Assembly: GCA_031267575.1 (NCBI GenBank)
Contig: JAIRYN010000047.1
Location: 62,001 to 126,000 of the forward strand
Source of the DNA: Synergistaceae bacterium
GTDB taxonomy: Bacteria > Synergistota > Synergistia > Synergistales > Aminobacteriaceae
Length of the DNA: 64,000 bases
Reading direction: 5' to 3'
The translations under genes and the position numbers were made by a program. Below are positions 7,961 through 30,010 of this stretch, piece after piece. Below the pieces are notes generated by a model, which ran no database searches, was not told the DNA's origin, and worked only from the letters and a program-made list of their open reading frames with translations. Numbering within the stretch: the first letter of the stretch is position 1; each line of letters starts with the position of its first letter.

Positions 7961-7979
7961 TCTTTTCTTGGGTTATCGA

Positions 7980-8258: not shown

Positions 8259-8283
8259 GCTGAAACATTCCTTTCCAAAGGGC

Positions 8284-9111: not shown

Positions 9112-9146
9112 TATTTGGCATTATTTGGCATTATTCGACATTATTT
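9109..9146. repeat. Four tandem 10-bp units at the BMC-H / flavoprotein junction
   Basis: On the plus strand CATTATTTGG, CATTATTTGG, CATTATTCGA and CATTATTTGA follow each other. On the coding strand each unit carries TAATG, so the BMC-H stop and flavoprotein start appear to have been pushed apart by slippage of a stop/start overlap. Confidence 0.75.
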
Positions 9147-9419
9147 GAATTTGGCGAGGATCGTTTCCACGTCCGCGTGCGGTTTAGGAATGACATGGAC
9201 AGACACCACTTCCCCGACGGCGCGAGCGGATTCGGCGCCCGCATCGGTAGCGGCTTTTACCGCACCCACGTCGCCGCGAATCAAAATCGTGACAAGGCCA
9301 AAGCCGACTTTTTCATATCCCACAATGGTGACACCCGCTGCCTTAACCATAGCATCCGCCGCTTCAATCGCGCCTACGAGCCCTCTTGTTTCAATCATAC
9401 CCAAAGCCGAATTATCCAT
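9141..9419 (-). CDS. BMC-H hexameric shell protein (PduA/EutM-like)
   Basis: The 92-residue protein has the single BMC domain: [20 protein letters not shown], then [20 protein letters not shown] and [11 protein letters not shown]. The conserved K of the family (VGYEKVG) and the pore-side loop are present. ATG 9419 is preceded by GGAGG at 8-9 bases; the longer frame to 9452 is not needed. It should form hexagonal facets of a microcompartment. It is one of three BMC-H genes here, separated from the others by the aminotransferase gene. Confidence 0.95.
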
Positions 9420-9521
9420 AATTGAGACCTCCATTTTCAAATACAATGCCAATCAGTTAAGCAAAACATCCTATCGCCGAGTAGTTGTAAAGTTTGGGCA
9501 TAAGCTAATTTCAAGTTTTTC

Positions 9522-10700
9522 TTATTTTGAATTTAACCTACCGGTGAAGTCGGCGATGCGCTCCACAGCGATCTTCAAGTTTTCCAGCGAATTAGCGTAG
9601 GAAAGACGAATAAAGCCCTCGCCAAAGCTTCCGAACGCTGTCCCGCCAGCCGCAGCTACCCCACCCTCCTCCAACAAACGATTCGCGAAGTCGCCGGAGC
9701 TCAGTCCGAAAGACGAGATATTGGGAAAGGCGTAAAACGCGCCATGAGGCAGAACACAGTGGATGCCCTTAATTTCATTTAAAGCCGCGATCAAGTACTC
9801 GCGTCTTTCCTTGAAGGCGGCAACCATTTTCTTCACATCATCCTGGGGGCCTTCTAGAGCCTCAATAGCTGCCCACTGAGTCATAGACGCGGCGCAGGAG
9901 TTGGAGTTCGCCATTAGCATGGTCATGTGCCCGGCCAGTTCTTTGTTCATTACCCCGTAGCCCAGACGCCACCCAGTCATGGCGAAGGTTTTGGAGAACC
10001 CGTCTAAGATGATGGTTTGATCTTTTATTCCCGGCAGAGATGCGATGGAAAGAGGTTGTCCCTCGAAAACGATCTGATCATAAATCTCGTCGGACATGAC
10101 GTAAATGTCTTTACCTCGAACCAGGTCAGCGATGCCTAGAATGTCCTCACGGGAGAAAACACCCCCTGTGGGGTTTCCTGGATTATTGACGATTATGAGC
10201 TTGGTTTTTTCGTTGATGTCGCGTTTTAATTGGTCCAGGTCCAGGCGAAAGTCGTTTTTCTCCAAAAGGGGCATGGGCACCGGCTTAGCTCCAGAGAACT
10301 TTATGACGGACTCATATATAGGAAAGCCGGGGTTGGGGTAGATCACCTCATCGCCGGGTTGGGTCAACATCAGCATGGTGTAGAACATGATGGGCTTGCC
10401 GCCCGGAACCACCACCACGTTTTCCATGTCCACATCCACTTTTTTATACTCGCGGCAGTGTTTCGCAATGGTCTCGCGCAAGGGTGGAATACCAGCAGTA
10501 GGAGTGTAGCCGGTCTTGCCTTCATTTAGTGCCTTGCAGGCTGCGTCGATGATGTTTTGCGGAGTCTTAAAATCTGGTTGCCCAATCTCTAGGTGAACGA
10601 CGCTTTTACCATGAGCCTCCAGGGCGTTAGCTCTGGCCATGATGCTGAAGGCGGATTCTGTGTGGAGCAAATTCATTCTGTCGGCTATGCGGTTTTTCAT
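9522..10700 (-). CDS. PLP-dependent class I/II aminotransferase
   Basis: The 392-residue protein has the AAT-I fold signatures: GQPDFKTP near residue 40, NNPGNPTGG near 172, SDEIYDQIVF near 203, and the PLP-binding lysine in DGFSKTFAMTGWRLGYG near 240. Family members transfer amino groups between an amino acid and a 2-oxoacid. It lies between two BMC-H genes in the same operon, with a perfect AAGGAGGT site before ATG 10700. The substrate is unknown; handling of glycine, alanine or a downstream amino acid of purine fermentation is plausible. I see no encapsulation peptide at either end. Confidence 0.9.
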   Translation of the reverse strand: MKNRIADRMNLLHTESAFSIMARANALEAHGKSVVHLEIGQPDFKTPQNIIDAACKALNEGKTGYTPTAGIPPLRETIAKHCREYKKVDVDMENVVVVPGGKPIMFYTMLMLTQPGDEVIYPNPGFPIYESVIKFSGAKPVPMPLLEKNDFRLDLDQLKRDINEKTKLIIVNNPGNPTGGVFSREDILGIADLVRGKDIYVMSDEIYDQIVFEGQPLSIASLPGIKDQTIILDGFSKTFAMTGWRLGYGVMNKELAGHMTMLMANSNSCAASMTQWAAIEALEGPQDDVKKMVAAFKERREYLIAALNEIKGIHCVLPHGAFYAFPNISSFGLSSGDFANRLLEEGGVAAAGGTAFGSFGEGFIRLSYANSLENLKIAVERIADFTGRLNSK

Positions 10701-10797
10701 TGTCAGACCTCCTTATTAATAAACGCGATTGATGATGTTATTGTTCAGGAACATCGCTAGATTGGCAGCGGAGATGTGCACCACTGGGCACGGCGGG

Positions 10798-11103
10798 CTA
10801 AATCGGCCCGGGCAAAAAGGATTTTTCGTATTTGTTGATAATTTTGTCCAGCTCACCGTGAGGACTGGCGATCACATGCGACCCCACGACTCGCCCAACA
10901 CGATTACCGGCCACTTCACCAGCTTCTACAGCCGATTGCACCGCAGCCACGTCACCGGTTAAATTCAATGTAATGCTAATCATTTTGTCGACACCTATGA
11001 CGCGGTCACAGCCTATCAATGTGACATCCGCGCTTTTTGTCGCGGCGTCTAGAGCCACCATAGCTGTGGATAAACCAATTGCTTCTATCAAGCCTAAAGC
11101 CAT
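10798..11103 (-). CDS. BMC-H hexameric shell protein
   Basis: The 101-residue protein has one BMC domain: MALGLIEAIGLSTAMVALDA, the DRVIGVDKM segment in place of the usual EKVG, LTGDVAAVQSAVEAGEVAG and HVIASPHGELD. A 12-residue C-terminal extension ends in FLPGPI. It starts at ATG 11103 with AGGGGTG upstream. Its sequence differs from the other two BMC-H proteins in the pore-facing region, so a mixed shell with different pores is likely. Confidence 0.94.
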   Translation of the reverse strand: MALGLIEAIGLSTAMVALDAATKSADVTLIGCDRVIGVDKMISITLNLTGDVAAVQSAVEAGEVAGNRVGRVVGSHVIASPHGELDKIINKYEKSFLPGPI

Positions 11104-11115
11104 TTTATTTCACCC

Positions 11116-11376
11116 CTATCGCCTATGGTTTGCCAAATCATCTAAGCTGATCATCCGTGTCTCTTGAACAGGACCCTGTTTTTGGCAGCGGACAGTGCGG
11201 GCGAGGTCGGAAGAAGGATTTTTTCTTACTGGTTCGCGAATTTCTTGAATCAACATTGATTCTTCTTGCTCGGACAAATGCCCCGCAACGCTGTCGGTGC
11301 TTGGTGTACTACGCGCATTTCGCTTCGATAGATTACCCATGACTTTTAATGTCAGTGTGTTCGCCAATGTGTTCAC
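11116..11376 (-). CDS. Small unknown protein encoded between two BMC-H genes
   Basis: I do not recognise this 86-residue protein. It is polar, rich in Arg, Ser and Glu, and has no membrane segment. It contains two short amphipathic stretches (EQEESMLIQEIREPV and MISLDDLANHRR) separated by a region that looks disordered. The GTG start at 11376 overlaps the TGA of the upstream BMC-H (GTGA), and the stop is 12 bp before the next BMC-H, so it is translationally coupled to shell genes. An alternative start is ATG 11340, without a ribosome site. Possible roles are a cargo adaptor or shell-binding peptide (speculation). Confidence 0.6.
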   Translation of the reverse strand: MNTLANTLTLKVMGNLSKRNARSTPSTDSVAGHLSEQEESMLIQEIREPVRKNPSSDLARTVRCQKQGPVQETRMISLDDLANHRR

Positions 11377-11648
11377 CCGCCCAGTTCAACCAATTTATCC
11401 ACTTCGTCGTTAGGCCGCGCAATAACATTGTAACTGATTACTTCACTTATACGACTGGCCGCTTGCTGTCCGCTTTCTACCGCTGCTTGTACTGCCGCAA
11501 CATCTCCGGTGACAACAACCGCCACCAGTCCTGATCCCACAATCTGAAAATCATAGACCTGTACACTAGCAGCCTTCAACATGGTATCGAGAGCTTCAAT
11601 GGCTCCTACTAGTGATCTTATCTCTACCGTTCCTAGCGCTTCTCTCAC
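11373..11648 (-). CDS. BMC-H hexameric shell protein
   Basis: The 91-residue protein has one BMC domain: EALGTVEIRSLVGAIEALDT, DFQIVGSGLVAVVVTGDVA, then NVIARPNDEVDKLV. The start is GTG 11648, overlapping the UbiD stop by 4 bases (GTGA), so the shell protein is translationally coupled to the decarboxylase. It overlaps the small unknown gene downstream in the same way. This close coupling is the best local evidence that UbiD is microcompartment cargo. Confidence 0.94.
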   Translation of the reverse strand: MREALGTVEIRSLVGAIEALDTMLKAASVQVYDFQIVGSGLVAVVVTGDVAAVQAAVESGQQAASRISEVISYNVIARPNDEVDKLVELGG

Positions 11649-13048
11649 GCAGTCTCACCCCTTTGTTTCTTTTTTAGCGGCCCTAGATACTTGTTGATAT
11701 CCAAACTGTTCTCAAAACCTGGAATTTTCGCGCGCGCGTAGTTTTGAGACGCGGCACCCAATGGTTTCGTCGCGTCAAATCCGAGTTTGTCGGTCATTCC
11801 ACGTTCCAGATGAGAAGCCTCCAAAGGAGACCCCAGAGCGCCCGCTATCATAACCAAATCCGTCGAGGCTTGAAATCTAGATGAGATGGCGAATTCCACA
11901 TCCAGTGGATCGAAAATATCGACATCTTCGTCAACTACGACTACGTGCTTTATATCTTTGTAAGCGCCCAGTGTTGTTATGATCGCGCTTTTACCGTCTC
12001 CTGGACTGCGTTTTCGGATCGACACCACCGCGTTCAACCTGCACCCACCTCCGATGGTGAGATTGACATCCAGAACATCCACAACGCTACTGAGAGCCGC
12101 GTACAATTCGGCTTCTTTTATCATTCCATATACAAGATGTTCTTCACGGCAAGGAAACGCGTGTTGAAATATGTAGTCATTTCTATGAGTAACGGTCGTA
12201 ATTTCCATGAGAGGAGACGTTCCCAGCTCACTATAGTATCCCATTAATTCCGCAAACGGACCTTCTTTCCCTTTCCTGCCTGGATGTATCACACCCTCAA
12301 ATACAATTTCCGCGTAAGCGGGAACCTCAAAATCAATGCTACGGCATCGGACTAATTCAAGCGGCTCACCACGCATAGCGGAGTCTACGGCGTATTTATC
12401 CAACCCATATTTTTGAGAACCAATCTGAGAAGACAACAAAAACGCCGCGTCGTATCCAAGAATAACGGCACATTCCAATGTCTTGTTGTTTTTTTCGCAT
12501 TCCGTCAACATATTGAGAAGATGAGGGGAGGCACCCGACACCAAGACGTTTAAAGAATTACCCTCATTGACTTGAAAACGACGTACCGCCATATGTGTAC
12601 ACCTAGAATCGATGTCTCGATACGCGATGATGCCAGCCGTGATATAGGGACCGCTGTCGCGCTCGTTTGAAATGGGAAACGGGCACAGGGCTCTTAAATC
12701 AATATTACCGCGGATGACATTCTCTTGAACAGGCCCTTTGTCGATAATGCGAGGCTTCCCAGGGTTAGCAACCGCATTCATGATTTTAAAGATGCGATCT
12801 TCCAAAGTCGTATTCAATAAATCACATATAATTCTCCTGTTTCCGTAAAGGGCCCCGGCTACACTCACTTTTGAACCTGTAACACTGCTGAACAATATAG
12901 GCTGTTCATTGCGAAAGTGGGATAGGACCGCACCGAGTTCAAATTTGGGATCGACAGGCACGGAACAAGTGACTAAGTCGTCGTTTTTTTTCAGTCGATC
13001 CAGCACTGCCCGCAACATTTGCTTTTCGGATGTCATATTTCCCGTCAT
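11645..13048 (-). CDS. UbiD-family prenyl-FMN decarboxylase (candidate 4-amino-5-imidazolecarboxylate decarboxylase)
   Basis: The 467-residue protein has the complete UbiD layout. The catalytic triad is readable: R156/R157 in AVRRFQV, then E262 and E267 five residues apart in KEGPFAELMGYYS, equivalent to the Arg-Glu-Glu triad of fungal Fdc1. The metal/FMN region SGPYITAGIIAYRD (132-145) and the C-terminal FDPLDVEFAISSRFQ are present. UbiD enzymes use prenylated FMN to (de)carboxylate aromatic or unsaturated acids. In this operon the fitting step is loss of CO2 from 4-amino-5-imidazolecarboxylate (inference). Its ATG overlaps the UbiX stop (ATGA) and its stop overlaps a BMC-H start. Confidence 0.92.
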   Translation of the reverse strand: MTGNMTSEKQMLRAVLDRLKKNDDLVTCSVPVDPKFELGAVLSHFRNEQPILFSSVTGSKVSVAGALYGNRRIICDLLNTTLEDRIFKIMNAVANPGKPRIIDKGPVQENVIRGNIDLRALCPFPISNERDSGPYITAGIIAYRDIDSRCTHMAVRRFQVNEGNSLNVLVSGASPHLLNMLTECEKNNKTLECAVILGYDAAFLLSSQIGSQKYGLDKYAVDSAMRGEPLELVRCRSIDFEVPAYAEIVFEGVIHPGRKGKEGPFAELMGYYSELGTSPLMEITTVTHRNDYIFQHAFPCREEHLVYGMIKEAELYAALSSVVDVLDVNLTIGGGCRLNAVVSIRKRSPGDGKSAIITTLGAYKDIKHVVVVDEDVDIFDPLDVEFAISSRFQASTDLVMIAGALGSPLEASHLERGMTDKLGFDATKPLGAASQNYARAKIPGFENSLDINKYLGPLKKKQRGETA

Positions 13049-13617
13049 ATTTCCTCACCATTCCAACGTCGATAGGTTTGGTTTTCAATTTTCAACTGAT
13101 CGAGAATTTTCCCCACCATAAAACTCACCAGATCGCTGATATCTTGTGGATGATTGTAAAAAGCAGGACTGGCAGGCAAAATGACAACTCCCATTCTTGC
13201 AAGCCTCAGCATATTTTCTAAATGAATGGGGTTATACGGCGTTTCTCGGACAACCATAACCAGCCTACGCTGTTCTTTAATACAAACGTCCGCTGCTCGT
13301 GTAAGTAATGAATCGGAAAATCCATTTGCGATAGCGGACAAAGTTTTCATTGAACAGGGAACAACAGCCATGCCGTCCGATAAATAGCTACCGCTGGCGA
13401 TGGCGGCACCAAGATTATGGTTGTCATGAAACACGTCACAATATTCCTTTAACTCCTGCAAACTGACCCCGCACTCGTGTTCCGTAACATTCACGCCCAT
13501 ATCCGATACCACAAGATGTGCTTCAATTTCCATTTCTCGAAGCATCTTCAGCAAAGCCAAGGCATAAATCGAACCGCTACCGCCTGTGATACCCACTATA
13601 ATCCGCATGTCCCCCAT
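13045..13617 (-). CDS. ubiX: UbiX-type flavin prenyltransferase
   Basis: The 190-residue protein shows the UbiX/Pad1 signatures: GITGGSGSIYA at 9-19, PCSMKTLSAIANG near 92-104, and VVRETPYN near 121-128. It transfers a dimethylallyl group to FMN, making the prenyl-FMN cofactor required by UbiD. The gene overlaps ubiD by 4 bases, so cofactor maker and user are coupled. The start is ATG 13617 or ATG 13608; a G-rich ribosome site precedes both. Whether it stays in the cytosol or enters the compartment is unknown. Confidence 0.93.
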   Translation of the reverse strand: MGDMRIIVGITGGSGSIYALALLKMLREMEIEAHLVVSDMGVNVTEHECGVSLQELKEYCDVFHDNHNLGAAIASGSYLSDGMAVVPCSMKTLSAIANGFSDSLLTRAADVCIKEQRRLVMVVRETPYNPIHLENMLRLARMGVVILPASPAFYNHPQDISDLVSFMVGKILDQLKIENQTYRRWNGEEI

Positions 13618-13657
13618 CCCCTATTGCGTTCAGCAAAATGACTTTCGGGACTTTCAT

Positions 13658-14608
13658 TTAAATCTCCATAAGATGCGTCTCTAAAATTTGACTTTGACGA
13701 AAATCTTCCAAACTTAATGAATACAGGAAACTTTGAATGACCGCTTCGAGCTTGATGGGTCCCACAAGCTGAGAACCTGTGACGGATACGCCAAAGCGTT
13801 CAGCTTCTCTGCGGCAAAAGTCAAACACACGCTGAATAGGAGTATTCATGCAGTCGAACATGTTCATAGACACGACTACGCCTTCATGTTCAGGAAATTT
13901 TATCCCAACCGCGCGGATGGAGGAAAACCCACCGCTGGGACCCCGTACCGCTTTGGCTATATCTTTAGCAATATTGAGATTTTCTGTGTTGAGAAAAATA
14001 TTGTAGGCTGTCAATCCGTTGGCTTCACAACTTACAATGGTGCCACCCGCTTTATCGTTCAACAGACCATCAATGCTGTAATCCGGTTTTCTTCCCTCAT
14101 ATTCCTTCACTCGCTCAGCGTCTGATTGGGTGTCCAACAACAATTGGCGCAAGCCTTCGTATTGCCCTTTCCGAATATATGCGAAAGACGCTCTTTCAGG
14201 AGTACGCGCGTTTTCACCGGCAAAAAACACCGGGATTTTGGTTTTCTCAAAAAACTCCTTGCCAATCTCTTCTGCCAGAGAAGCGCATTCTTCCAGAGAA
14301 ATGTTCAAAAAAGGAAAAATAGGCAGAGTATCCTGGGCTCCTATACGTGGATGACTTCCTTTTTGAGCGCTCATGTCGATTAACTCCGCCGCTTTCGCTC
14401 CCATGTTGACCAGGGCTTTTTTAACCGGCTGCGGTTCACCGATAAACGTAACGACAGTACGGTTAAAATCATGTTCCGGTTCGACACTGATCAACTTTAC
14501 CCCGGAAACTTTAGATACTTCTGCTGTGACCTGATCGATGATATTTTTATCTTGTCCATTACTGAAGTTGGGAACAGCAAGAACATATTGTTTTTTCTCG
14601 GACAACAC
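13658..14608 (-). CDS. Formiminotransferase (FtcD N-domain type; candidate glycine formimidoyltransferase)
   Basis: The 316-residue protein matches the formiminotransferase half of FTCD: EPEHDFNRTVVTF near 43-55, the catalytic HPRIGAQDTLPIFP (H86), RKGQYEGLR, and GPSGGFSSIRAVG near 225. Family members move a formimino group from formiminoglutamate, or from formiminoglycine in purine fermenters, to tetrahydrofolate. The partner cyclodeaminase is a separate gene at 22088-22717. With no histidine-degradation genes beside it, formiminoglycine is the likelier donor (inference). Start GTG 14608 has GGAGGC 5 bases upstream. Confidence 0.9.
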   Translation of the reverse strand: MLSEKKQYVLAVPNFSNGQDKNIIDQVTAEVSKVSGVKLISVEPEHDFNRTVVTFIGEPQPVKKALVNMGAKAAELIDMSAQKGSHPRIGAQDTLPIFPFLNISLEECASLAEEIGKEFFEKTKIPVFFAGENARTPERASFAYIRKGQYEGLRQLLLDTQSDAERVKEYEGRKPDYSIDGLLNDKAGGTIVSCEANGLTAYNIFLNTENLNIAKDIAKAVRGPSGGFSSIRAVGIKFPEHEGVVVSMNMFDCMNTPIQRVFDFCRREAERFGVSVTGSQLVGPIKLEAVIQSFLYSLSLEDFRQSQILETHLMEI

Positions 14609-14741
14609 AAACGCCTCCAGTTATTGCCCCCGGCTTTGCGGGGGCGTCAAATTTGGTTACGATCCTTATAATTGTTCAAGCTCAGGAGGGCAGAGCCCAT
14701 TTGGCCAAAAGCGGCCTCACTGGCCCCCATTCTTATTCTTC

Positions 14742-15434
14742 TTATTCTTCCAGCAAAGCGATCGCTCGGATAGGCGATCCCGAACCATCACGGATTTTTA
14801 GGGGCAATCCGAAAAATAAAAAGCGCCGCCCCACTAAAAGATGAAGATTACAGAGATTTTCCGTATTCGTTATGCCATATTCTCCACAGATCATATGTCC
14901 CGAAAAATCCAAATCTTCAGTATGATCAATAGACGGAGCATCCACGCCGATGTTGACCACGCCGTTTTCGGCAAGCCACTTTGCTCCCTTGTAACTGAGT
15001 CCGCTATAGGTAGTTTGCCATTTTTCCGTACCGAAATTATGGTCGTAGTGGCCGGTATACATCAAAAATATGTCTCCTTGCCGAAGTTCCTGCCTGGATT
15101 TTTCGACCGCGGATTCCAGGTCTTTGGGTTCAATGTAACGATTGACTGGAATGCTGGAGAGATCCACACAAATCGCGCTTCCCCAAAAATATTCAAGCGA
15201 CATATGGTCAATAGTAAGTCCGCCGGGCTTAAACTCCGACACGGCGTCCGTATGGGTGCCGGCGTGTTCACTGATCAAGAGATTCCGGGCGGAAAAACCC
15301 AGCGTTTTGCTTCCTGTTTTTTTCATGTTTTCTTCATAGGACATGTTGGTCATGATAAAAGTGGGCTGGTGCATCGGGAATATGGACATGCCCTGATAAA
15401 TGTCCTGCGACAAATCCACTAATTTCAATGGCAT
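14742..15434 (-). CDS. Cyclase/kynurenine-formamidase-family hydrolase (candidate 4-imidazolone amidohydrolase)
   Basis: The 230-residue protein belongs to the metal-dependent cyclase family (PF04199: kynurenine formamidase, isatin hydrolase). The signature HxGTHxDxPxH is seen as HAGTHTDAVSE at 57-67. H57, H61 and D63 are kept, the Pro is Val, and the last His is E67, so the metal site may be altered. MYTGHYDHNFGTEKW and NIGVDAPSIDH further on are typical. Isatin hydrolase opens a five-membered cyclic amide, so hydrolysis of 4-imidazolone to formiminoglycine is an attractive role here (inference). ATG 15434 follows GGAGGA; the frame to 15536 has no signal. Confidence 0.85.
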   Translation of the reverse strand: MPLKLVDLSQDIYQGMSIFPMHQPTFIMTNMSYEENMKKTGSKTLGFSARNLLISEHAGTHTDAVSEFKPGGLTIDHMSLEYFWGSAICVDLSSIPVNRYIEPKDLESAVEKSRQELRQGDIFLMYTGHYDHNFGTEKWQTTYSGLSYKGAKWLAENGVVNIGVDAPSIDHTEDLDFSGHMICGEYGITNTENLCNLHLLVGRRFLFFGLPLKIRDGSGSPIRAIALLEE

Positions 15435-15539
15435 ATGACTTCCTCCAAGCAATAACATTAAACAACAAAATAAACGCCCAGGGGACAACTCGACTGAATA
15501 AAATCGAAGAAATCGAATTGTCCCTGGGTGCTCCATGCC

Positions 15540-16946
15540 TTACTCTTCTTCTTTCAATAGGATATTCAGTATGAAAGCTACGATTGTACCTGCGGAAATA
15601 CCGGAAGAAAACAGTGCTTTCACGATACCGGGAAGCCCCTTTACCATTGCGGGCCAGCTCTCTATCGTCTCAGGAAGACTTGATATGAGTTCCGGACGCA
15701 TGGTAACACCCAGTCCTATTCCGATTGCCGATGCGATGATCAGCATATTCCGGTTGTTGAACTTGACCTCCGAAAGCGATTGGACACCCGCAGAAGCCAC
15801 TGTACCGAACATGAGGACTCCTACCCCTCCTAACACCGGAGGAGGCATGATGGAAACCACGGTAGCGAGCTTTGGAAACAGGCTCAGTATCACGAGCATG
15901 ACGCCTGCCGCGATGGCGACCGATCGAGACGCGCATTTCGTGAGTGGAATAAGCCCCGCGTTTTGACTGAAAGTCGCAACAGGCCCAGAACCCAGTATGG
16001 GAGAAATCAGAGATCCAAAGCCATCAGCGCGAACGCCATCCGCAATGATCTCATCGGTCATTTCGCTCTGCGTCATATTGCCGATACTCTGTACAACCCC
16101 TACCGTTTCAATGACGGTGACTAAATATCCCGCAATAAAAGGAATCACGAACTTCGGGTTGAAGTCGACGCCATATCGAAAAACCTGAGGCATGGCAAAC
16201 CACTCCGCTGCTGCCACCTGACTGAAATCCACTAGGTCAAGAGGAATGGAAATCAAGTACCCTACAACAATTCCAATAAGGATGGAAGCGTTACTAATAA
16301 TCCCCTTGCCATAACGATTCAATAAAATTGCAACTAAGAACACAAAGGTGGCAAGCATGATATTGATTGGAGCACCGTAATTGGGAGATCCTACACCACC
16401 TCCGACCCAGTCGAAAGCGACCGGCATGATCGTTACGCCTATGAGGGTGATCACCGTTCCAGTGACAACCTGTGGGAAAAATTTCATCAATGGTTTGACG
16501 AAATAACTCAAAAAGATCTCCAGTAAGGCCCCCAACATGGATGCGCCGAAATAGCCTGCCATACCGCCTCCCATCGTATTGATGATGGTATAAGCCGGCG
16601 GGACGAAACCAAAGTCGGTTCCCATGACAGTAGGCATCCCTGTGCCCACACGAAATGGTTTTTTGAATATGCCGCGGGACTGAATGATAGAAACAATCCC
16701 CGAACATAGCAACGCAGCGCTGATAAGGTAACTGGTTTCATGAACGTTCAGACCCGCAAACCCCGAAAGGACAAACGGCACTGCCACAATGCCCCCAAAC
16801 GCGGTGACGATATTTTGGAACCCCAATAAACATGTAGTCAGAAACGGAGGTTTGTCTTCAAGGCGGTAATTTAATTTGATATTGGACATTCCATCTGCTG
16901 TTTTGTCCGTATGTGTCATTATTGCCTGGTCGTCTGTTGCTTGCAT
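15540..16946 (-). CDS. NCS2 nucleobase:cation symporter (xanthine/uracil permease family)
   Basis: The 468-residue membrane protein has about 14 hydrophobic segments and the NCS2 pattern: PFLTTCLLGFQNIVTAFGGI near the start, GTDFGFVPPAYTIINTMGGG in the middle, and a C-terminal GLGVTMRPE. The motif ETVGVVQSIGNMTQSEM resembles the ETxGD-type motif of purine/uric acid carriers. It should import xanthine, urate or another purine with H+ or Na+. ATG 16946 has AAGGAG upstream. Placed between the hydrolase genes and the BMC enzymes, it is the uptake step of the pathway. Confidence 0.92.
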   Translation of the reverse strand: MQATDDQAIMTHTDKTADGMSNIKLNYRLEDKPPFLTTCLLGFQNIVTAFGGIVAVPFVLSGFAGLNVHETSYLISAALLCSGIVSIIQSRGIFKKPFRVGTGMPTVMGTDFGFVPPAYTIINTMGGGMAGYFGASMLGALLEIFLSYFVKPLMKFFPQVVTGTVITLIGVTIMPVAFDWVGGGVGSPNYGAPINIMLATFVFLVAILLNRYGKGIISNASILIGIVVGYLISIPLDLVDFSQVAAAEWFAMPQVFRYGVDFNPKFVIPFIAGYLVTVIETVGVVQSIGNMTQSEMTDEIIADGVRADGFGSLISPILGSGPVATFSQNAGLIPLTKCASRSVAIAAGVMLVILSLFPKLATVVSIMPPPVLGGVGVLMFGTVASAGVQSLSEVKFNNRNMLIIASAIGIGLGVTMRPELISSLPETIESWPAMVKGLPGIVKALFSSGISAGTIVAFILNILLKEEE

Positions 16947-17153
16947 AGTGAATTCTCCTTCGTGTAGAAAATTTTCAGCAATCAAAATGCAACTAACGAA
17001 TGAGACATCAAGTAGGAAGCAAAAAACAGTATACGCATAAAACATCTGGATAAACATATACAAATAAACGTGCTATCGCAAGTTCTTCTGTACGATGACT
17101 CAGGTGTTTTTTGAAAGTTATTCTCTAAAGAAACGCTTCTTAAACAAATATTT

Positions 17154-17702
17154 TTAAGAATAGAGCTTCTTATACTCCTCCAACGTAAGCACTTCGCCAA
17201 AAATGCCAATATCGACAAGCCCGGCTTGGTGCATCTCCTCCGTTTTAGACGCTGTGCAGTCGCTGATGCAGCGAACCTTGTACGTGTGATAAAGCGCGTC
17301 CGAAGCGGTGGAACGGACGCAGACGTTCGTCCAGGTTCCCGTGACGACCACTGTGTCGATTCCTTCTTCCCTCAGGAACAAGTCGAGATCCGTGTATGCG
17401 AAGGAGCTGTGTCGTCTTTTTTGAACGATGTAATCGCCCAGCTCTTCGTTGGGGCGTAGTTCGTCGATGAAGTCCGATCCCCATGTGCCTTTAACCGCGT
17501 GAACCGGACGCACGCGAAAATCTTTATCGTTTTTCCGGTGCGCTTCCTCGATGAAGACGACTTGAATGCTTTTTTCGTGGGCAAATTTGATCAGATCCTG
17601 AAGTTTGGGAATAATCGTAAGGCCAGCCGGACAAAAAAGCGCGCCTTTCGGATCGGCAAAATCGTTGAGCATATCAATAATGAGAATCGCGTCTTTACTC
17701 AT
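17154..17702 (-). CDS. Isochorismatase-family cysteine hydrolase (candidate ureidoimidazolecarboxylate hydrolase)
   Basis: The 182-residue protein has the cysteine hydrolase triad: D10 in ILIIDMLNDF, K95 in VQKRRHSSF, and C128 in TWTNVCVRSTASDA. Relatives include N-carbamoylsarcosine amidase, ureidoacrylate amidohydrolase and biuret hydrolase, which cleave N-carbamoyl groups to CO2 and NH3. In purine fermentation the same chemistry converts 4-ureido-5-imidazolecarboxylate to the amino acid form, so this is the best candidate in the operon. It starts 30 bp after the cyclic amidohydrolase gene, with AAGGAG before ATG 17702. Confidence 0.88.
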   Translation of the reverse strand: MSKDAILIIDMLNDFADPKGALFCPAGLTIIPKLQDLIKFAHEKSIQVVFIEEAHRKNDKDFRVRPVHAVKGTWGSDFIDELRPNEELGDYIVQKRRHSSFAYTDLDLFLREEGIDTVVVTGTWTNVCVRSTASDALYHTYKVRCISDCTASKTEEMHQAGLVDIGIFGEVLTLEEYKKLYS

Positions 17703-17732
17703 TTCTTCTCCTTCTCCTTTTCCGAGATTGAA

Positions 17733-19145
17733 CTAGAAAATCAATTTCCGCGGTAAAGAACTGATGGTTTGGCGCTTGACATATTTCCCAAAGCCAGATT
17801 GGGCTACGATTCCTTTTTCTTCCGTAAATACGTCTTCGCCCCGCACAATGGTCCGTACAACTTTGCCCTTGAGTTTCATTCCGTCCAACGGAGTGTATTT
17901 GTTCAGACATTGAGTCTTCTTTTCGTCGATCGTCCACTCTTTTTCCAAGTCGATGATCGTGAAATCTGCGTCGGAACCGATGGCTAACGCTCCTTTTTTG
18001 GGGTACAGGCCGTAATGTATAGCGGGAGATGCGCAAAGAATCTCTACAAGGCGAGAAAGCCCAATGCGCCCCTTGTTGTAGCCTTCACTCACGATCACCG
18101 GTACCATCGTCTCCACGCCAGGAATCCCAGGAAAGGCGGTCCAAATGTCCATGCCCGCTTTATCTTTTTCCTCTTCGATACTGTAAGGCGCGTGGTCGGT
18201 GGCGATAAAGTCGACGCTCCCATCCGCGATACCTTTCCATAACATCGCATTGTCTTCAACGCGGCGGAGCGGAGGAGCTATTTTGGCGAAAGCCCCGTAT
18301 TTCGTCATGGCGTCTTGTGCGTTCAAAGTTAAATAGTGCGCGCAAGTTTCGGCGGTGACTTTCAAGCCTTTTATTTTCGCTTCACGAATCAATTCGGCGC
18401 CAATTCCCGTGCTCATATGCACAACGTGGAATCGAGCGTCTGTTTCTTCGCTGTAGCTGATGCAGAGCTGTATCGCCACTTTTTCCGCGAGAATCTTTCG
18501 TGCTTCCGCCCACGCCGGGCCGTCTTTCCGTCCTGCTTCTTTTAATTTGTTCACATAGAAATCGCATATAGCGAAATTCTCGCAATGAACTCCGACCGCA
18601 AGACCTGTTTTTGCGATTGCCGCAAAGCACTCCAGCATTTCCGGATCAGTGACGCGAGGATAGCTAGGCACAGAGGGAGTCATGTAAACTTTGAATGCGC
18701 ACACGCCAGCATCAGCCTGTTGCTGTACGACATCTAAAGCCCCATTGCGGACGTCTTCACCAGTGACCCCTCCCCACAAGGCGAAATCGACGATGGCTTG
18801 GGGTTCAAGGTGTGATAATTTGTAATTCAAATTATCAACGCTACGGACTGACGGTACACTACAGCAAGGCATGTCGATAATCGTGGTTACGCCTCCGGCG
18901 GCGGCCCCGCTGGTTCCGGTCAGAAATGTTTCGCGATGGGTAAAACCTTGATCCATGAAATGAGTATGAGAATCGATACACCCTGGCAAAACCAACTTGC
19001 TCTGCGCGTCCACGGTCCGTTTTGCCTCGATCTGCGCGTTCGCGAGGAAGCCGACAATGATTCCCTTGTCGACCAAAATATCCGTAATCACCGTTTGCTC
19101 TCCGTTGGGAACAGCCGCGTTTTTGATGAGAAGATCGTAACTCAC
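17733..19145 (-). CDS. Dihydropyrimidinase/allantoinase-type cyclic amidohydrolase (candidate xanthine amidohydrolase)
   Basis: The 470-residue TIM-barrel amidohydrolase has all metal ligands: H60 and H62 in DSHTHF, carbamylated K152 in CAFKVYMTPS, H187 in GVHCEN, H243 in VVHMSTG, and D317 in ATDHAPY. Family members hydrolyse cyclic amides (hydantoins, dihydropyrimidines, allantoin). The classical pathway opens the pyrimidine ring of xanthine by a metal-dependent amidohydrolase, and this is the only protein in the operon suited to it (inference). Allantoinase is the alternative; no urate oxidase accompanies it. Start GTG 19145 follows AAGGAGTG. Confidence 0.9.
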   Translation of the reverse strand: MSYDLLIKNAAVPNGEQTVITDILVDKGIIVGFLANAQIEAKRTVDAQSKLVLPGCIDSHTHFMDQGFTHRETFLTGTSGAAAGGVTTIIDMPCCSVPSVRSVDNLNYKLSHLEPQAIVDFALWGGVTGEDVRNGALDVVQQQADAGVCAFKVYMTPSVPSYPRVTDPEMLECFAAIAKTGLAVGVHCENFAICDFYVNKLKEAGRKDGPAWAEARKILAEKVAIQLCISYSEETDARFHVVHMSTGIGAELIREAKIKGLKVTAETCAHYLTLNAQDAMTKYGAFAKIAPPLRRVEDNAMLWKGIADGSVDFIATDHAPYSIEEEKDKAGMDIWTAFPGIPGVETMVPVIVSEGYNKGRIGLSRLVEILCASPAIHYGLYPKKGALAIGSDADFTIIDLEKEWTIDEKKTQCLNKYTPLDGMKLKGKVVRTIVRGEDVFTEEKGIVAQSGFGKYVKRQTISSLPRKLIF

Positions 19146-19248
19146 TTAATCAACACTCCTTCTGTCATGATTGATTTAGATCTTGCCAGTATCTTCAAAG
19201 CGCTTAACAGAGGAAATTAGCACAAGAGCACACGCCTCCCTCTTTGAG

Positions 19249-20409
19249 TCAACTTTTTTGAAGAGTTGATTTCAACAAATATTCTTTCAAAACTTTGGCG
19301 ATTCGCAATATAGATTCAATCGAGACATACTCGTCTGGCTGATGGAAGAACATCTCCTCCCCCGGACCGATAATGATGTACGGTACGCCAAGTCGAGGAA
19401 CAAATATTGAAGCGTCGGTAAAATACCGTATCCCCGTCGTTTTCCATGACATTTTTAGTTTTTTGTAGATTTCCGCGAAAGTACATATCAAAGGCGCGTT
19501 TTCATCCATACCTAAAGCAGGGCGGTTCTGAGTGACATCGTAAGATATTTTTAATAGATCGTTTTCGCGCATCTGATCTTGAGCGATAGTATTTATTTTT
19601 TCGAGTATAGAAGTATGGTCGATGCAGGGAGAAGTTCGAATGTCGAAAGAAGCCTTGGTATATTCTGGAACGACGTTTGAATAATTGCCGCCGTGAAGGC
19701 TGGTGATTGTACAGGTCGAGTGGCCTAAAAGCGGATATTTCCCTTTTTTATGGAGCCATTTTGCAATGTTTTGAGCGAACAGGGCAGTTTGTTCGATGGC
19801 GTTGACTCCTTTATCTGGCATAGCGGCATGAGCGCCACAGCCCCTGGTTTCCACCGACAACCAAAGTGTTCCCTTCTCAGCCAAACCTATTTTTTCATTT
19901 GTAGGCTTGACCACCACAATCTCTGTCGCCTTGTCGAGATATCCGCCATCGCAAAGGCTCTTCGCACCGATTCCACCGTTCTCTTCATCCGCGGTAAAAC
20001 AGAGCTGGATGTCTAGGACAGGCCGGAAATTATCTTCCAAAAGATTGAGAGCCGCTAAGAGGATACTTGTGACGCCCCCCTTCATGTCCGCGGCACCGCG
20101 ACCATAAACTCGATCTCCATCGTGAAAAGCGGAAAAAGGTCCATATTGCCATTGGTGTCCGACATCGACACCCACCGTATCCAAATGACCGACAATCGCT
20201 ATGGAGTGACTTCGATTTTTTCCAGGCAGGGTTACAATTAAAGAAGCTCTGTTATTCCCGTGCTCAAGAACAATACATTCAACGGGATACGTGCTGAACA
20301 AATCACATAGATAAAGCACAGCGTCTTTTTCGTCGCCGTATGGCTGAGGAGTTCGTATTCGTATCAATTGCCCCAAAATGTTTATAGCGCTCCGTTCTTC
20401 AAATTCCAC
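19249..20409 (-). CDS. M20-family metallo-hydrolase (deacylase/desuccinylase-like)
   Basis: The 386-residue protein has the di-zinc M20 pattern: VGHLDTVG with H75 and D77, RGAADMKGG with D108, TADEENGG with the catalytic E142/E143, and a late FFHQPDEYV. A dimerisation domain follows near residue 180. The family includes peptidases, desuccinylases and N-carbamoyl/allantoate amidohydrolases, and YgeY lies in the purine-related gene cluster of E. coli. Its step here is open: an alternative ureido hydrolase is possible. It is the first gene after the 370-bp regulatory gap. Start GTG 20409 follows AGGGGA. Confidence 0.85.
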   Translation of the reverse strand: MEFEERSAINILGQLIRIRTPQPYGDEKDAVLYLCDLFSTYPVECIVLEHGNNRASLIVTLPGKNRSHSIAIVGHLDTVGVDVGHQWQYGPFSAFHDGDRVYGRGAADMKGGVTSILLAALNLLEDNFRPVLDIQLCFTADEENGGIGAKSLCDGGYLDKATEIVVVKPTNEKIGLAEKGTLWLSVETRGCGAHAAMPDKGVNAIEQTALFAQNIAKWLHKKGKYPLLGHSTCTITSLHGGNYSNVVPEYTKASFDIRTSPCIDHTSILEKINTIAQDQMRENDLLKISYDVTQNRPALGMDENAPLICTFAEIYKKLKMSWKTTGIRYFTDASIFVPRLGVPYIIIGPGEEMFFHQPDEYVSIESILRIAKVLKEYLLKSTLQKS

Positions 20410-20779
20410 TTGAAAAATCCCCTCTAGGTGTGTCGCCTTTTGATTTTGGGAAACTCTCGCTTTATACTGAACACCATTACTTACTTATTCTCAGAAACAC
20501 TTGAAGTCGAAAAAGTTGATTGATGTTCACAAGGTAGATGGAAGATTAAGTATCATAATCATAAGAAGATGTTCTACAAAAGTCTTTGTCCATGAAGGAT
20601 AAAATTTTTAAAAAAATTTTGCAAAAAACTACAATAAATTTCACCAAATTTCGCCATTCTTAATCATGGCAGAGCTTTATAGAGATATAGAGTCGGTTGA
20701 TAATTGGATGATCATGATCTTTCAATTTGGTTTCAATTTGGAAATAGTCATAATGACGATGGGTAAGCACACGGAGAAT
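20410..20779. promoter_or_regulatory. Regulatory gap upstream of the purine operon
   Basis: These 370 bp are AT-rich, hold no gene, and lie just before the first catabolic gene and after the PucR-type regulator, so they should contain the operon promoter. A direct repeat TTTCAATTTGG (twice, about 20718-20740) and poly-A/T tracts at 20600-20635 are visible. No purine riboswitch core was recognised. Confidence 0.5.
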
Positions 20780-21940
20780 TTAGGAGTGTTCCTGAAGTCT
20801 GTATATACGGAGGGCAAGAGAGAGGTTAAAACGTTCTTCTGAATTGGCTGGGTCAATGTTCAAAAGTTCCCAAATTTTGGCAGCTCTGTATTTGACAGTA
20901 TTGTAATGCAAAGCAAGTATATGAGCAACCTTTTGTAGATTTCCACTGTTTTCTTCTATGCACAAGAGCGTTTGCAAAAGTTCTCCGTTTTTGCCGTGAT
21001 CCTGGATGATGGGAGCCAATGTTTGACGACAAAAATCCGTAGCTGCATCGGTATTCGCCATCGTCGCCAATAAACGGAGCCCGCCTAACTGATTCCAAAA
21101 AACAATCTTTTCTTTTTCTTTTCCGGGAGAGCTTTCCAGAATCATCAATGCCTGCCGCGCTTCTTGGTAGCTTTTGTGGGCAAAAAGCGGTGATTTTCGA
21201 CAATCCCCGACAGCGGCGATTATTTCGACTGCATATCGGTCTTGTATATCTTTGCGCAATGCGCCTAAAACTTCACGTAACCTGTAATGGAAGTGTCGTA
21301 AGTCATTCGCGTCGGGATTATAGGATAGAAGGAAAACAATAGAATGCGCTTCCTGCGAAAAGATAGATTGGGGAAAAAAGGCGCGGATTCTGACACAGGA
21401 AAGTTCCCAAAAGTCATGTGTCGCTAAATCTTTTTTGCCGATATATTTTCGAGAGAGAGCAATAATCAGACATATGACTCCACCGTCGAGTTGCCAATGA
21501 AATGTTCTGGCTCGATTGATCAATTCCTCTTGATGTACGATCCTGTTATACAAGAGATCTTGAACAAAATTGTTCCGGTATTCACTTTCCATCTTTTCTT
21601 GAAGTATTGTCTGCCTGTAAATCAACTGTATGGCCGCTAAACTGTTAACAAGGTTTTCTTCTTTAGTTTTTTCGGACGACGGAGAGGTGTTCAACAAGAG
21701 ATAACCCAACAATTGGCAGGACAAACGGACCTCTTGAAACGCATAAAGCCGCATCAGTTCTTTTAAAGGATAAGTCGTAGCGCGTTCGCAAAAAAGTGGG
21801 GCGCCGGAACAAAATACGGCACCCGTCCGCATATCTTTCCAAGCGACATCAATACCGATATCTTCGCGTATGGCTTTTAAAAGTTTGTGTATGTCTTCTC
21901 CTTCTAACAAAATTTCTAGAAAACACGCAAAGGAATTCAT
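20780..21940 (-). CDS. PucR/CdaR-family transcriptional regulator
   Basis: The 386-residue protein ends in a PucR-type helix-turn-helix (HTH_30), with LHYNTVKYRAAKIWELLNID typical of the family. A GGDEF-like CdaR domain occupies the middle, and the N-terminal 130 residues form a sensing region. PucR of Bacillus controls purine catabolism genes, and the position at the head of this purine locus supports the same job (inference). It is transcribed in the same direction as the catabolic genes, with cyclodeaminase upstream. ATG 21940 has a GAGG site. Confidence 0.88.
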   Translation of the reverse strand: MNSFACFLEILLEGEDIHKLLKAIREDIGIDVAWKDMRTGAVFCSGAPLFCERATTYPLKELMRLYAFQEVRLSCQLLGYLLLNTSPSSEKTKEENLVNSLAAIQLIYRQTILQEKMESEYRNNFVQDLLYNRIVHQEELINRARTFHWQLDGGVICLIIALSRKYIGKKDLATHDFWELSCVRIRAFFPQSIFSQEAHSIVFLLSYNPDANDLRHFHYRLREVLGALRKDIQDRYAVEIIAAVGDCRKSPLFAHKSYQEARQALMILESSPGKEKEKIVFWNQLGGLRLLATMANTDAATDFCRQTLAPIIQDHGKNGELLQTLLCIEENSGNLQKVAHILALHYNTVKYRAAKIWELLNIDPANSEERFNLSLALRIYRLQEHS

Positions 21941-22087
21941 GAAAGCACTTCCTCAGCTCAAAAATACACCATGCAATGCAGGAGTCAATATGCTGTTGTG
22001 CTGCTTTGCATTTTTAGAGGAGTAATAAAATCCGCCAGGCGACCGGAGGTTCGAAGTGAGTCACCCTAACTACCATAGTCGTCTGTA

Positions 22088-22717
22088 TCAATATACGAAT
22101 CTGTTTTTGAATACCGCATCGGTTTTCCCGTGCTGAATTTGAATCTCTGTTTTGGCAGCGTCGAGTTGGCTTTGGAATTTGAGGGCAGTATTTGTATCTG
22201 TAATGCTCGGAAGGTTTATCGTCACGTTCATGATCGCGCCCAGCGCGGCGAGATGGGCACATTCGATAGCCACTCCGCAATCACTGAGAACATTATCGTG
22301 CGCGACACTTGCCACGCTCTCCAAGAGTTTACAGCAAGTTATGGACAATTGTGTCGTCTCCATCGGTATTTGTGTTGCCTCAACCATTGCTGCCTCGATT
22401 TCCTTTTTTCGGGTCTCTTGCTCGTGCTCAGATGTTTTGGGAAGTTTGTAGGCTCTCATGACTTTGTTAAACGCGTCCGTGTCCTCGTCGGCCAGCTCAA
22501 TAAAGCGTTTTTGCGCGATTGCTAGACTGTCCATCACTTCTAGAAGCAAATCGGAGGCTTCCGTTTTATTGGATCGTTGTAAAGTGAGCCCACATACCAT
22601 TACGCCAAGCCCTGCAGCAAATGCCCCATTCACGGCCGAAATCGTTCCGCCGCCAGGGGCCGGAGATGACGATGCCAGTTCAGAAACAAATTCTTTCATA
22701 GATAAGTCCATTAACAT
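22088..22717 (-). CDS. fchA: Formimino-tetrahydrofolate cyclodeaminase
   Basis: The 209-residue, mainly helical protein begins LSMKEFVSELASSSPAPGGG, the folate-binding signature of the FTCD C-terminal domain and FchA. It converts 5-formimino-THF to 5,10-methenyl-THF with release of ammonia, feeding one-carbon units to formate and ATP or to glycine/serine interconversion. It completes the step begun by the formiminotransferase at 13658-14608. ATG 22717 has AAAGGAGAG upstream. It is the first gene of the minus-strand purine block, 147 bp before the PucR-type regulator. Confidence 0.93.
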   Translation of the reverse strand: MLMDLSMKEFVSELASSSPAPGGGTISAVNGAFAAGLGVMVCGLTLQRSNKTEASDLLLEVMDSLAIAQKRFIELADEDTDAFNKVMRAYKLPKTSEHEQETRKKEIEAAMVEATQIPMETTQLSITCCKLLESVASVAHDNVLSDCGVAIECAHLAALGAIMNVTINLPSITDTNTALKFQSQLDAAKTEIQIQHGKTDAVFKNRFVY

Positions 22718-27109: not shown

Positions 27110-30010
27110 ATGGCCATGTCCATTACGGGCATTGTGTCCGGCATAGACTGGGACAGTATGGTGTCAGAATTGCTCGAGAAAGTGAAACAGCCTGCTTATG
27201 TAATCTTGGATAAGCGGGACAGACTTGAGCGGACGAAAACCCTTTGGGAGGAACTCCAGGTCTCCATGCAAGCTCTGCAAAGCGCCCTGTCGCCCTTGAA
27301 GTTAGTCTCCACCTTCAAGGCGAAGGAGGTTGAAATCGAGAGGCTCGACCGCAACACCTCGTATAAGGGAGTTTTGACTGCGACCGTCAACGCGGATGCT
27401 GCGATCAACATCCACGAACTGGAGGTTGTGCAGTTGGCTAAAGCCCAAGTCAACCGTTCTAACCAGTTTTCGTCCGTCACGAGCCAATTCGGCAATATTT
27501 TGGGATCAAGCAGTTCTTATTTCTACATAAACGCCGGCGGGCACAAAGTACGTATTGACGTAGCCTCGACGGATACGCTGACTTCCCTCACGGACAAGAT
27601 CAACACGCAGCTCAAGACCCAGAGTTCCCCCGTCGGAGTAACGGCGAGCGTCGTGGATAACAAGCTCGTCCTTAAAAGCGACAACACGGGTTTGGGAGAT
27701 ACGACGCACACGGCGACAATAACGCGATCCGTCAACTCTTATGACACTGTGTTTTTCAGCACGAGCTCCGACAATACCGACTCCACCTATGACCCTCCTA
27801 CTTACACCCTCGACATGGAACTGGGCGGCGGTTTCGGCGAAGGGAGGATCACCATTATGGGCGCAGATGGCACAACTTACACGTCGGGCGTAGATTTCGA
27901 CGTTGTGGGCGGCGACTCTGTACGCTGGAGAATTTTGGATCCAGTGGTCCCCCCTCCAGGAGCCCTTTATTATGACACGTACACGGCGTATGCGGGAGAC
28001 ACGTTCTCGATGACGGCGACGCGTTCTTCAGATGGCAACGTGGATTCGTTGGTTTTGCCTTTCACGCCAAAGTCCGGAGGCGAGGTAAATGTCGAATTCG
28101 GAGGTAACACTTATTCCTCGACGGACGCGAATCCTGTTTTTCAAGTCACTTCCGATGGCTCGATACACTGGTTAGACACCAATAAACCGGTAGATGGAGA
28201 GAGTTACAAGGTAACCTATATCGCCGCAGGAGATGAAAGCGTTACTCTTGAGATCACACGCAATAATAAAGACGAGTTGTCAGTAAACTACGCCGATATC
28301 GTGGGAGGAACCACCACGATCCAGCAATCAGGAAGCCGGGTCTGGAGAGAAGGGATCGACTTCGACATCGTGCAGGATATCAACGGTAAGGCAGTAGTCC
28401 AGTGGTACACGGGAGGAGCCGGAGATGCCCCAGAGCCCAACAGCTCTTACGACATAACATTGTACAAAATCGACGGCACGACAGATACCATTAGCGTCAC
28501 ACGTAATGCTGAGGACACGTTCAGTTTGCCTCACAACGGCACGTTTGAAACCGATCCTCATGGGATGCACAAGATAACGTACAATGGCTTAACTTTCGAT
28601 TATAGTACCTCATCGGTCATAGATGCCTGGTCTTATGACGCCAAACTCGACTCTTCGAATCAGAATCTCGTGATAACATGGGCAGCGCCAAATCCAGCGT
28701 CAATGAATCCCCCCTCCCCTGGAATGCATTCGAAGACTCCTGCCTACGGGAGCACGTATACCGTTGAATACACCTATGGTGCCAACACTTTTTTCCTAAG
28801 CGACGACGGTAACGGTACTCTGGCCGCGTTTGGTTTGGATAACATGGACGCAGACCATTACACGGCGGCACAAGATGCACTGCTGGTGCTAAACGGCGAG
28901 ACGGTGAGTCGCTCCTCCAATTTCATAGGCGAGGGCTACGGGAATGAGCTGATCACGGGAATGACCCTGCAACTGAAGGGCGTAGGACAGGTGTCGCTTG
29001 ATGTTTCGCAGGACGCGGAGAGCGCCGTCACCGCGTTGCAGAATTGTGTCACAGCCTACAACGACATTTTAGACTGGATCAACGTGCGCATGACAGAAAA
29101 AGCACTAGACGATACCGCAAAGGCCACGGTGGACAGCGACGATTTTCGTATGAACTGGGGGCTTTTGAAAGGGAACTCTCTTCTGCGCACCACGAAGAAC
29201 TCCATGCGCCTACTGACGTCTCAAGTGTACGCCGCGTTGTTTACGGAGCGTGTCAGCCGTAACGCGATCTTCGGCACGATGTTGCAAAACGGAGTCCTCA
29301 GAGCGGAGAACTTTACCATTAGTGCGGGAGACCGCACCCTGAGCGTTACTGTAGATCCCAGCGACACGCTCTCGATGGTCGCGGCGAAAATCAACAACCC
29401 TCAGCTCGACGGGCAAAACAACCCGTTGTTTTACGACGCGAACGGAGAAGCCTACTCCATACCTCTTGCCAAAGCTGAGGTGGAGAACAACAAGCTGGTT
29501 ATACGGGGGGACGGCCAAGTTTCCCTTGGTGGTTCGACGTCTATGTTGTCGTCGCTTGGGTTGAATTACGAATATTCGACACTCTCTCAGATCGGAATAA
29601 AGCTCGCTTCTACGGGCACTGTGTCCGATGAGGGGAAAAGTGGCGAACTCAATTTTGACACCAGTACCTTCATGGCTGCTCTGGAAAACAACGCTGACGA
29701 CGTTTCGGCATTGGTAACGAGCTTTGCGACCCAAATGCAAACCTTCGTGGACAATATGATCAAGTCCTCTCAGAAAGAGGTGGCCTCCGGTTTCACCACG
29801 GCTCAAGGTTCTGTTGTGCGTGAGATGAACGCCATCGACACGGAAATCGCGTCAATCGACGAATATCTCGAAAAATTCGAAGCGAGGTTGCAGGCAAAAC
29901 AGGCAAGTCTTCAGGCTCAATTCGCTGCTGCTGAGGTCAGTCTTTCCACACTCGTTCAACAGGCATCATGGCTTGAAACCGTTACGGCACAGTTGCAATC
30001 GTCCTCGTAG
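27110..30010 (+). CDS. fliD: Flagellar hook-associated protein 2 (filament cap), enlarged
   Basis: The first 100 residues match FliD_N (GIVSGIDWDSMVSELLEKVK and following coiled coil). The last 330 match FliD_C, including the terminal coiled coil with MNAIDTEIASIDEYLEKFEA. FliD caps the growing filament and folds flagellin outside the cell. At 966 residues it is far longer than common FliD (about 450-700). The extra length lies at about residues 225-570, where four similar beta-rich segments of roughly 90 residues can be seen. GGAGGT precedes ATG 27110. No other intact flagellar gene is in the window. Confidence 0.92.
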   Translation: MAMSITGIVSGIDWDSMVSELLEKVKQPAYVILDKRDRLERTKTLWEELQVSMQALQSALSPLKLVSTFKAKEVEIERLDRNTSYKGVLTATVNADAAINIHELEVVQLAKAQVNRSNQFSSVTSQFGNILGSSSSYFYINAGGHKVRIDVASTDTLTSLTDKINTQLKTQSSPVGVTASVVDNKLVLKSDNTGLGDTTHTATITRSVNSYDTVFFSTSSDNTDSTYDPPTYTLDMELGGGFGEGRITIMGADGTTYTSGVDFDVVGGDSVRWRILDPVVPPPGALYYDTYTAYAGDTFSMTATRSSDGNVDSLVLPFTPKSGGEVNVEFGGNTYSSTDANPVFQVTSDGSIHWLDTNKPVDGESYKVTYIAAGDESVTLEITRNNKDELSVNYADIVGGTTTIQQSGSRVWREGIDFDIVQDINGKAVVQWYTGGAGDAPEPNSSYDITLYKIDGTTDTISVTRNAEDTFSLPHNGTFETDPHGMHKITYNGLTFDYSTSSVIDAWSYDAKLDSSNQNLVITWAAPNPASMNPPSPGMHSKTPAYGSTYTVEYTYGANTFFLSDDGNGTLAAFGLDNMDADHYTAAQDALLVLNGETVSRSSNFIGEGYGNELITGMTLQLKGVGQVSLDVSQDAESAVTALQNCVTAYNDILDWINVRMTEKALDDTAKATVDSDDFRMNWGLLKGNSLLRTTKNSMRLLTSQVYAALFTERVSRNAIFGTMLQNGVLRAENFTISAGDRTLSVTVDPSDTLSMVAAKINNPQLDGQNNPLFYDANGEAYSIPLAKAEVENNKLVIRGDGQVSLGGSTSMLSSLGLNYEYSTLSQIGIKLASTGTVSDEGKSGELNFDTSTFMAALENNADDVSALVTSFATQMQTFVDNMIKSSQKEVASGFTTAQGSVVREMNAIDTEIASIDEYLEKFEARLQAKQASLQAQFAAAEVSLSTLVQQASWLETVTAQLQSSS

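Follow-up and report, generated by a model that had tools for sequence, protein, structure and literature searches.

A Synergistota gene cluster with microcompartment shell genes that probably encodes the first two steps of an anaerobic xanthinase pathway

The stretch of DNA analysed here, 64,000 nucleotides of a Synergistaceae bacterium contig and hereafter the window, carries a locus of about 16.6 kb on the minus strand (6134-22717), at many of whose junctions neighbouring genes overlap by 4 bp or lie less than 40 bp apart. Within it are the two hydrolase genes that drew attention to the region; they are adjacent and 30 bp apart, as had been proposed, and a purine-rich, Shine-Dalgarno-like stretch precedes each. 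The original prediction did not mention the shell genes of the microcompartment or the remaining pathway genes, which are listed here with the pair in the direction of transcription, the first three lying upstream of the pair and the others following it in the order given.

22088-22717, minus strand: formimino-THF cyclodeaminase-like protein of the FTCD_C/FchA type (PF04961, 2.1e-56)
20780-21940, minus strand: PucR-type regulator (HTH_30/GGDEF_2, by Pfam), with PucR-like genes in 12 orthologous loci
19249-20409, minus strand: M20-family (ArgE/DapE) hydrolase, a lineage-specific neighbour (TIGR01910 above cut-off)
17733-19145, minus strand: amidohydrolase of the dihydropyrimidinase/hydantoinase fold, GTG start, 470 aa, a probable xanthine amidohydrolase (step 1)
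17154-17702, minus strand: isochorismatase-fold cysteine hydrolase, ATG start, 182 aa, a probable 4-ureido-5-imidazolecarboxylate amidohydrolase (step 2)
15540-17063, minus strand: NCS2 xanthine/purine permease (TIGR00801 above cut-off), true start possibly near 16946
14742-15434, minus strand: cyclase-family (kynurenine formamidase/isatin hydrolase-like) metal hydrolase (PF04199, 1.5e-31), probably opening the imidazolone ring
13658-14608, minus strand: FtcD formiminotransferase (TIGR02024, 277.8 bits, above cut-off), probably converting formiminoglycine to glycine and formimino-THF
13045-13617, minus strand: UbiX-family flavin prenyltransferase (TIGR00421 and PRK06029 above cut-off)
11645-13048, minus strand: UbiD-family prenyl-FMN decarboxylase (TIGR00148, 292.8 bits, above cut-off), probably acting on 4-amino-5-imidazolecarboxylate
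11373-11648, minus strand: BMC-H shell protein (PF00936, 3e-24)
11116-11376, minus strand: small protein of 86 aa with short, encapsulation-peptide-like motifs, its place conserved in XAU loci
10798-11103, minus strand: BMC-H shell protein (PF00936, 6.5e-22)
9522-10700, minus strand: class I/II aminotransferase amid the shell genes (PF00155, 3.8e-76)
9141-9419, minus strand: BMC-H shell protein, EutM-like (PF00936, 1.6e-28)
8284-9111, minus strand: microcompartment-associated protein with a weak match to TIGR02536, an ethanolamine utilization family (6.4e-7, below cut-off)
7980-8258, minus strand: EutN/CcmL pentameric vertex shell protein (PF03319, 2.8e-29)
6134-7960, minus strand: adenine-deaminase-like amidohydrolase (TIGR01178, 458.6 bits against a cut-off of 472.5), either an adenine deaminase or the pathway's 4-aminoimidazole deaminase

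The 470-aa protein matches Amidohydro_1 in Pfam (1.3e-25), and the full metal site earlier ascribed to it is borne out: the binuclear metal ligands (His60, His62, Lys152, His187, His243 and Asp317) are complete, and all six are invariant across 25 aligned sequences. Its AlphaFold model (pLDDT 91) is best matched by the L-hydantoinase 1gkr (TM 0.91), with allantoinases next. Set against the dihydropyrimidinase/L-hydantoinase/allantoinase family (1gkr, 3hm7, 8hfd), the protein is alike in fold and metal ligands but only 28-36% identical, and it falls in a separate clade with conserved motifs of its own (CCSxPSVR, WGGVTGED and PGIPG). In our tree, this XAH clade unites the protein with its orthologues (SH-aLRT 99) and leaves the allantoinase and hydantoinase references outside; three paralogue rows form long branches and are apparently wrong-frame, and the XAH clade is unaffected by them. 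Since the best-known family matches are an allantoinase and a hydantoinase, the pair might be taken to serve allantoin or hydantoin use, with a carbamoyl-amino acid hydrolase as the second enzyme. We reject this reading as very improbable. The 470-aa protein stays below the equivalog cut-offs for allantoinase (TIGR03178, 347.7 against 357.85 bits), dihydropyrimidinase/D-hydantoinase (TIGR02033, 314.9 against 393.25 bits) and hydantoin-5-propionate amidohydrolase, its clade is separate, and the UbiD, UbiX, FtcD, FchA and xanthine permease encoded beside it are not known to take part in the breakdown of allantoin or hydantoins. Judged from its genome context, the predicted activity of the 470-aa protein is probably the hydrolysis of xanthine at N1-C6.

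The 182-aa protein is a clear member of the Isochorismatase family in Pfam (2.9e-46), and the Asp-Lys-Cys triad previously read from its sequence (Asp10, Lys95 and Cys128) does not vary among 12 orthologues. Of the solved structures, 3hb7, an Alkaliphilus metalliredigens protein, is the best match (1.4e-72). The triad is shared with 3hb7, N-carbamoylsarcosine amidohydrolase and RutB, and a carbamoyl-type hydrolysis is expected of the 182-aa protein too; its scores do not reach the cut-offs for RutB (72.3 against 377.95) or biuret hydrolase (65.2 against 370).

A scan of genome contigs recovered 21 loci with amidohydrolases 62-80% identical to the 470-aa protein. The isochorismatase gene lies directly downstream in 18 of them, the remaining three being a truncated contig and two copies that stand alone, and the adjacency of the pair is thus not a matter of chance. 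Across these 21 loci, on contigs several of which are incomplete, UbiD and FtcD and the cyclase are each found in 16 and UbiX in 15, and three BMC-H genes, EutN and ade share the contig in 13. The Clostridia have the order of the window, shell genes included (FtcD-XAH-isochorismatase-UbiX-UbiD-BMC-H-BMC-H-BMC-H-EutN-ade), an order common to Alkaliphilus, Anaerosolibacter, Anoxynatronum, Lutispora and Sporosalibacterium; the window locus is both homologous to and syntenic with those of Alkaliphilus, from which the published XAU model locus comes. The cyclase-type protein is 61-78% identical to its clustered orthologues (its open reading frame extends to 15536, and the homologues begin near 15434), the adenine-deaminase-like protein is 64-75% identical to XAU-linked orthologues, the TIGR02536-like protein has homologues at the corresponding place in 11 loci, and the permease scores 413.6 bits against TIGR03173 (pbuX), whose cut-off is 414.15.

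The M20 hydrolase finds no match at E <= 1e-40 in seven of the eight other amidohydrolase-bearing genomes, and the match in the eighth is 30% identical. Its gene, upstream of the pair and in the company of a hydantoinase-type gene, invites comparison with the reductive uric-acid pathway (XdhD-YgfK-SsnA-HyuA-YgeY-YgeX), in which the two would be a YgeY-like M20 enzyme and a HyuA-type hydantoinase. That pathway does not include UbiD, FtcD or shell genes, no homologue of YgfK, SsnA or YgeX turned up among the locus genes, and the M20 protein scores far under the YgeY cut-offs (145.1 against 321 and 116.6 against 321.5). We reject this reading as well, and of those considered here it is the one we find hardest to credit.

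Overall, we believe that the pair provides steps 1 and 2 of an anaerobic xanthinase pathway linked to a microcompartment of the XAU/BUF1 type, a reading to which we give a probability of about 0.85; the same two steps had been proposed for the pair alone, and genome context, synteny and the fit of the enzyme classes to the chemistry support that proposal. The general pathway can be sketched as follows. Xanthine would enter through the permease, the metal amidohydrolase would cut its N1-C6 bond to give 4-ureido-5-imidazolecarboxylate, and the cysteine hydrolase would take off the carbamoyl group, as ammonia and carbon dioxide, to leave 4-amino-5-imidazolecarboxylate. UbiD, using prenyl-FMN made by UbiX, would then form 4-aminoimidazole, a deaminase, for which the adenine-deaminase-like protein is the candidate, would convert this to 4-imidazolone, the cyclase-type hydrolase would open 4-imidazolone to formiminoglycine, and FtcD and the cyclodeaminase would yield glycine and methenyl-THF; the PucR-type protein may regulate the locus. 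The enzyme classes of the locus appear to fit each step of the Rabinowitz-Pricer pathway from xanthine to glycine. The xanthinase cluster described by Tong and colleagues reportedly comprises four hydrolases of different families and a prenyl-FMN decarboxylase, a content that, as far as that account goes, fits the window locus.

The division of labour between the two ring-opening hydrolases is predicted from chemistry and context. Ravcheev et al. assigned the opening of the six-membered ring to Amet_4587 and that of the five-membered ring to Amet_4584 (PMC6620236); judged by position in the gene order, the former is the counterpart of the cyclase-type gene and the latter that of the window amidohydrolase. 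The published prediction would have the cyclase-type protein (14742-15434) open xanthine and the dihydropyrimidinase-like protein open 4-imidazolone to formiminoglycine, and it draws support from the closest solved structures to the 470-aa protein, an L-hydantoinase and an allantoinase, which open five-membered rings and so count against our xanthine assignment. We nevertheless consider such a swap improbable. Cleavage of N1-C6 in the cyclic six-membered ureide of xanthine is a dihydropyrimidinase-type reaction, and for this reason we prefer the amidohydrolase as step 1, whereas kynurenine formamidase and isatin hydrolase, to which the cyclase is related, open either simple amides or lactams with five-membered rings. 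Thermosyntropha lipolytica carries an amidohydrolase-isochorismatase-UbiD triplet whose products would act one directly after another only if step 1 belongs to the amidohydrolase, a weak argument, since a cyclase orthologue is present at a contig edge in the same genome. The triplet has no shell genes alongside, and EutN/CcmL was not found in the T. lipolytica genome; the chemistry may therefore not always need a shell.

Whatever the assignment of the ring-openers, the locus itself holds four shell genes, of the BMC-H and BMC-P (EutN/CcmL) types, and its enzymes may lie inside an assembled shell. None of the annotated genes at 6134-22717 encodes an aldehyde dehydrogenase, which matches the BUF definition. 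The 86-aa protein has no Pfam or NCBIfam match. Its homologues between the BMC-H genes of XAU loci, roughly 85-160 aa long and of low overall similarity, were compared in an alignment of 13 homologues, and three short motifs are conserved in 12 homologues from XAU loci: an amphipathic-looking N-terminal MANPLTRxIMxNI, EExLLxxII in the centre and SLxELA at the C terminus. It looks like a possible adaptor or scaffold made of encapsulation-peptide-like motifs. The aminotransferase, an aspartate-family enzyme, found no match in any further XAU locus that was examined, those of the closest relatives (L069 and L070) among them, and might possibly draw off glycine or its nitrogen. A fuller picture, which we offer tentatively and think rather unlikely as a whole, is of a horizontally acquired and modified xanthine microcompartment in the Synergistota, in which the aminotransferase has joined the organelle operon and the XAU-conserved short adaptor recruits enzymes to the shell. 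The same genome has another group of BMC shell genes outside this locus (contig C9, 37895-53043), and the host therefore probably makes another microcompartment.

The host is a member of the Synergistota, and its genome has a Synergist-CTERM domain match over the curated cut-off; no 16S gene was found in the assembly, and the sequence-based assignment to the phylum draws on this match and on the phylum's small size. Among 188 Synergistota genomes searched, an isochorismatase orthologue (E <= 1e-40) is found in this one only, and amidohydrolase matches elsewhere in the phylum do not exceed 42% identity and fall outside the XAH clade. The closest amidohydrolase sequences (80% and 77% identity) come from two MAGs labelled Deltaproteobacteria, whose XAU microcompartment loci are also the nearest to that of the window (L069 and L025 in one MAG, L070 and L024 in the other); in one of them a shell locus sits on a separate contig and includes FchA and a small protein like that of the window, but not the aminotransferase. 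Contamination of the contig was considered and rejected: the assembly's quality rating gives 97.1% completeness and 0 contamination, and a flagellar hook-associated gene some 4 kb outside the locus, FliD-like by inspection, has homologues within the same family, which argues for a native contig and a locus that was probably acquired. This FliD-like protein (966 aa; 27110-30010, plus strand) has a second copy, 66% identical, on contig C27 of the same genome. With the locus in one of 188 Synergistota genomes and a native gene flanking it, horizontal acquisition is evidently the simplest reading of the sequence data. A complete locus in the Synergistota and another in a Deltaproteobacteria-labelled MAG suggest that the whole cassette moves between phyla.

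The original prediction described the genes for these steps as poorly defined, a view that is now outdated: in 2019 Ravcheev et al. predicted that the same gene set encodes the XAU microcompartment pathway (PMC6620236), XAU has been equated with BUF1 (PMC8156839), and PMC12507026 reports that the gene cluster for xanthinase has been identified, citing Tong et al. (2023). XAU was stated to occur in Firmicutes only (PMC6620236), and the xanthinase pathway in Clostridia and Bacilli (PMC12507026). What is new here is modest, namely the Synergistota host, the Deltaproteobacteria-labelled MAGs, the inserted aminotransferase and the conserved small protein between BMC-H genes; the host extends the range of XAU, and it may already be recorded in the BUF1 distribution of Sutter et al. 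2021. XAU stands out because it is a microcompartment that involves no aldehyde chemistry, and independent, diverged versions of it help to tell its constant parts from its variable ones: the small adaptor-like protein belongs to the former, the aminotransferase and the M20 gene to the latter. Diverged versions also offer alternative enzymes for purine-lowering probiotics, for which the slow xanthinase (kcat 0.1 per second) is the bottleneck (PMC12507026).

In this context, the window locus is best described by comparison with the XAU/BUF1 systems of Alkaliphilus and other Firmicutes (PMC6620236; Sutter et al. 2021, PMC8217296). Common to both are the amidohydrolase, the isochorismatase, UbiD/UbiX, FtcD, the cyclase, the adenine-deaminase-like enzyme, the permease and the BMC-H and EutN shell genes, and neither has an aldehyde dehydrogenase; the XAU enzyme set is complete in the window (two ring hydrolases, carbamoyl hydrolase, decarboxylase, formiminotransferase, further deaminase and permease). 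The window differs in its Synergistota host, in the aminotransferase among its shell genes, in the M20 gene upstream, in a cyclase gene on the same strand as the other locus genes, and in having no xanthine dehydrogenase beside the cluster, the family being represented in this genome by two MoCoBD genes on other contigs (C60 and C38), whose presence fits the xanthine reading. Xanthine dehydrogenase lies beside the XAU cluster in four of the five published genomes and is hence not strictly required. With the xanthinase pathway described for purinolytic members of the Clostridia and Bacilli (Rabinowitz and Pricer 1956; Tong et al. 2023), so far as PMC12507026 relays it, the window shares the predicted chemistry and the enzyme classes, in a host of a different phylum.
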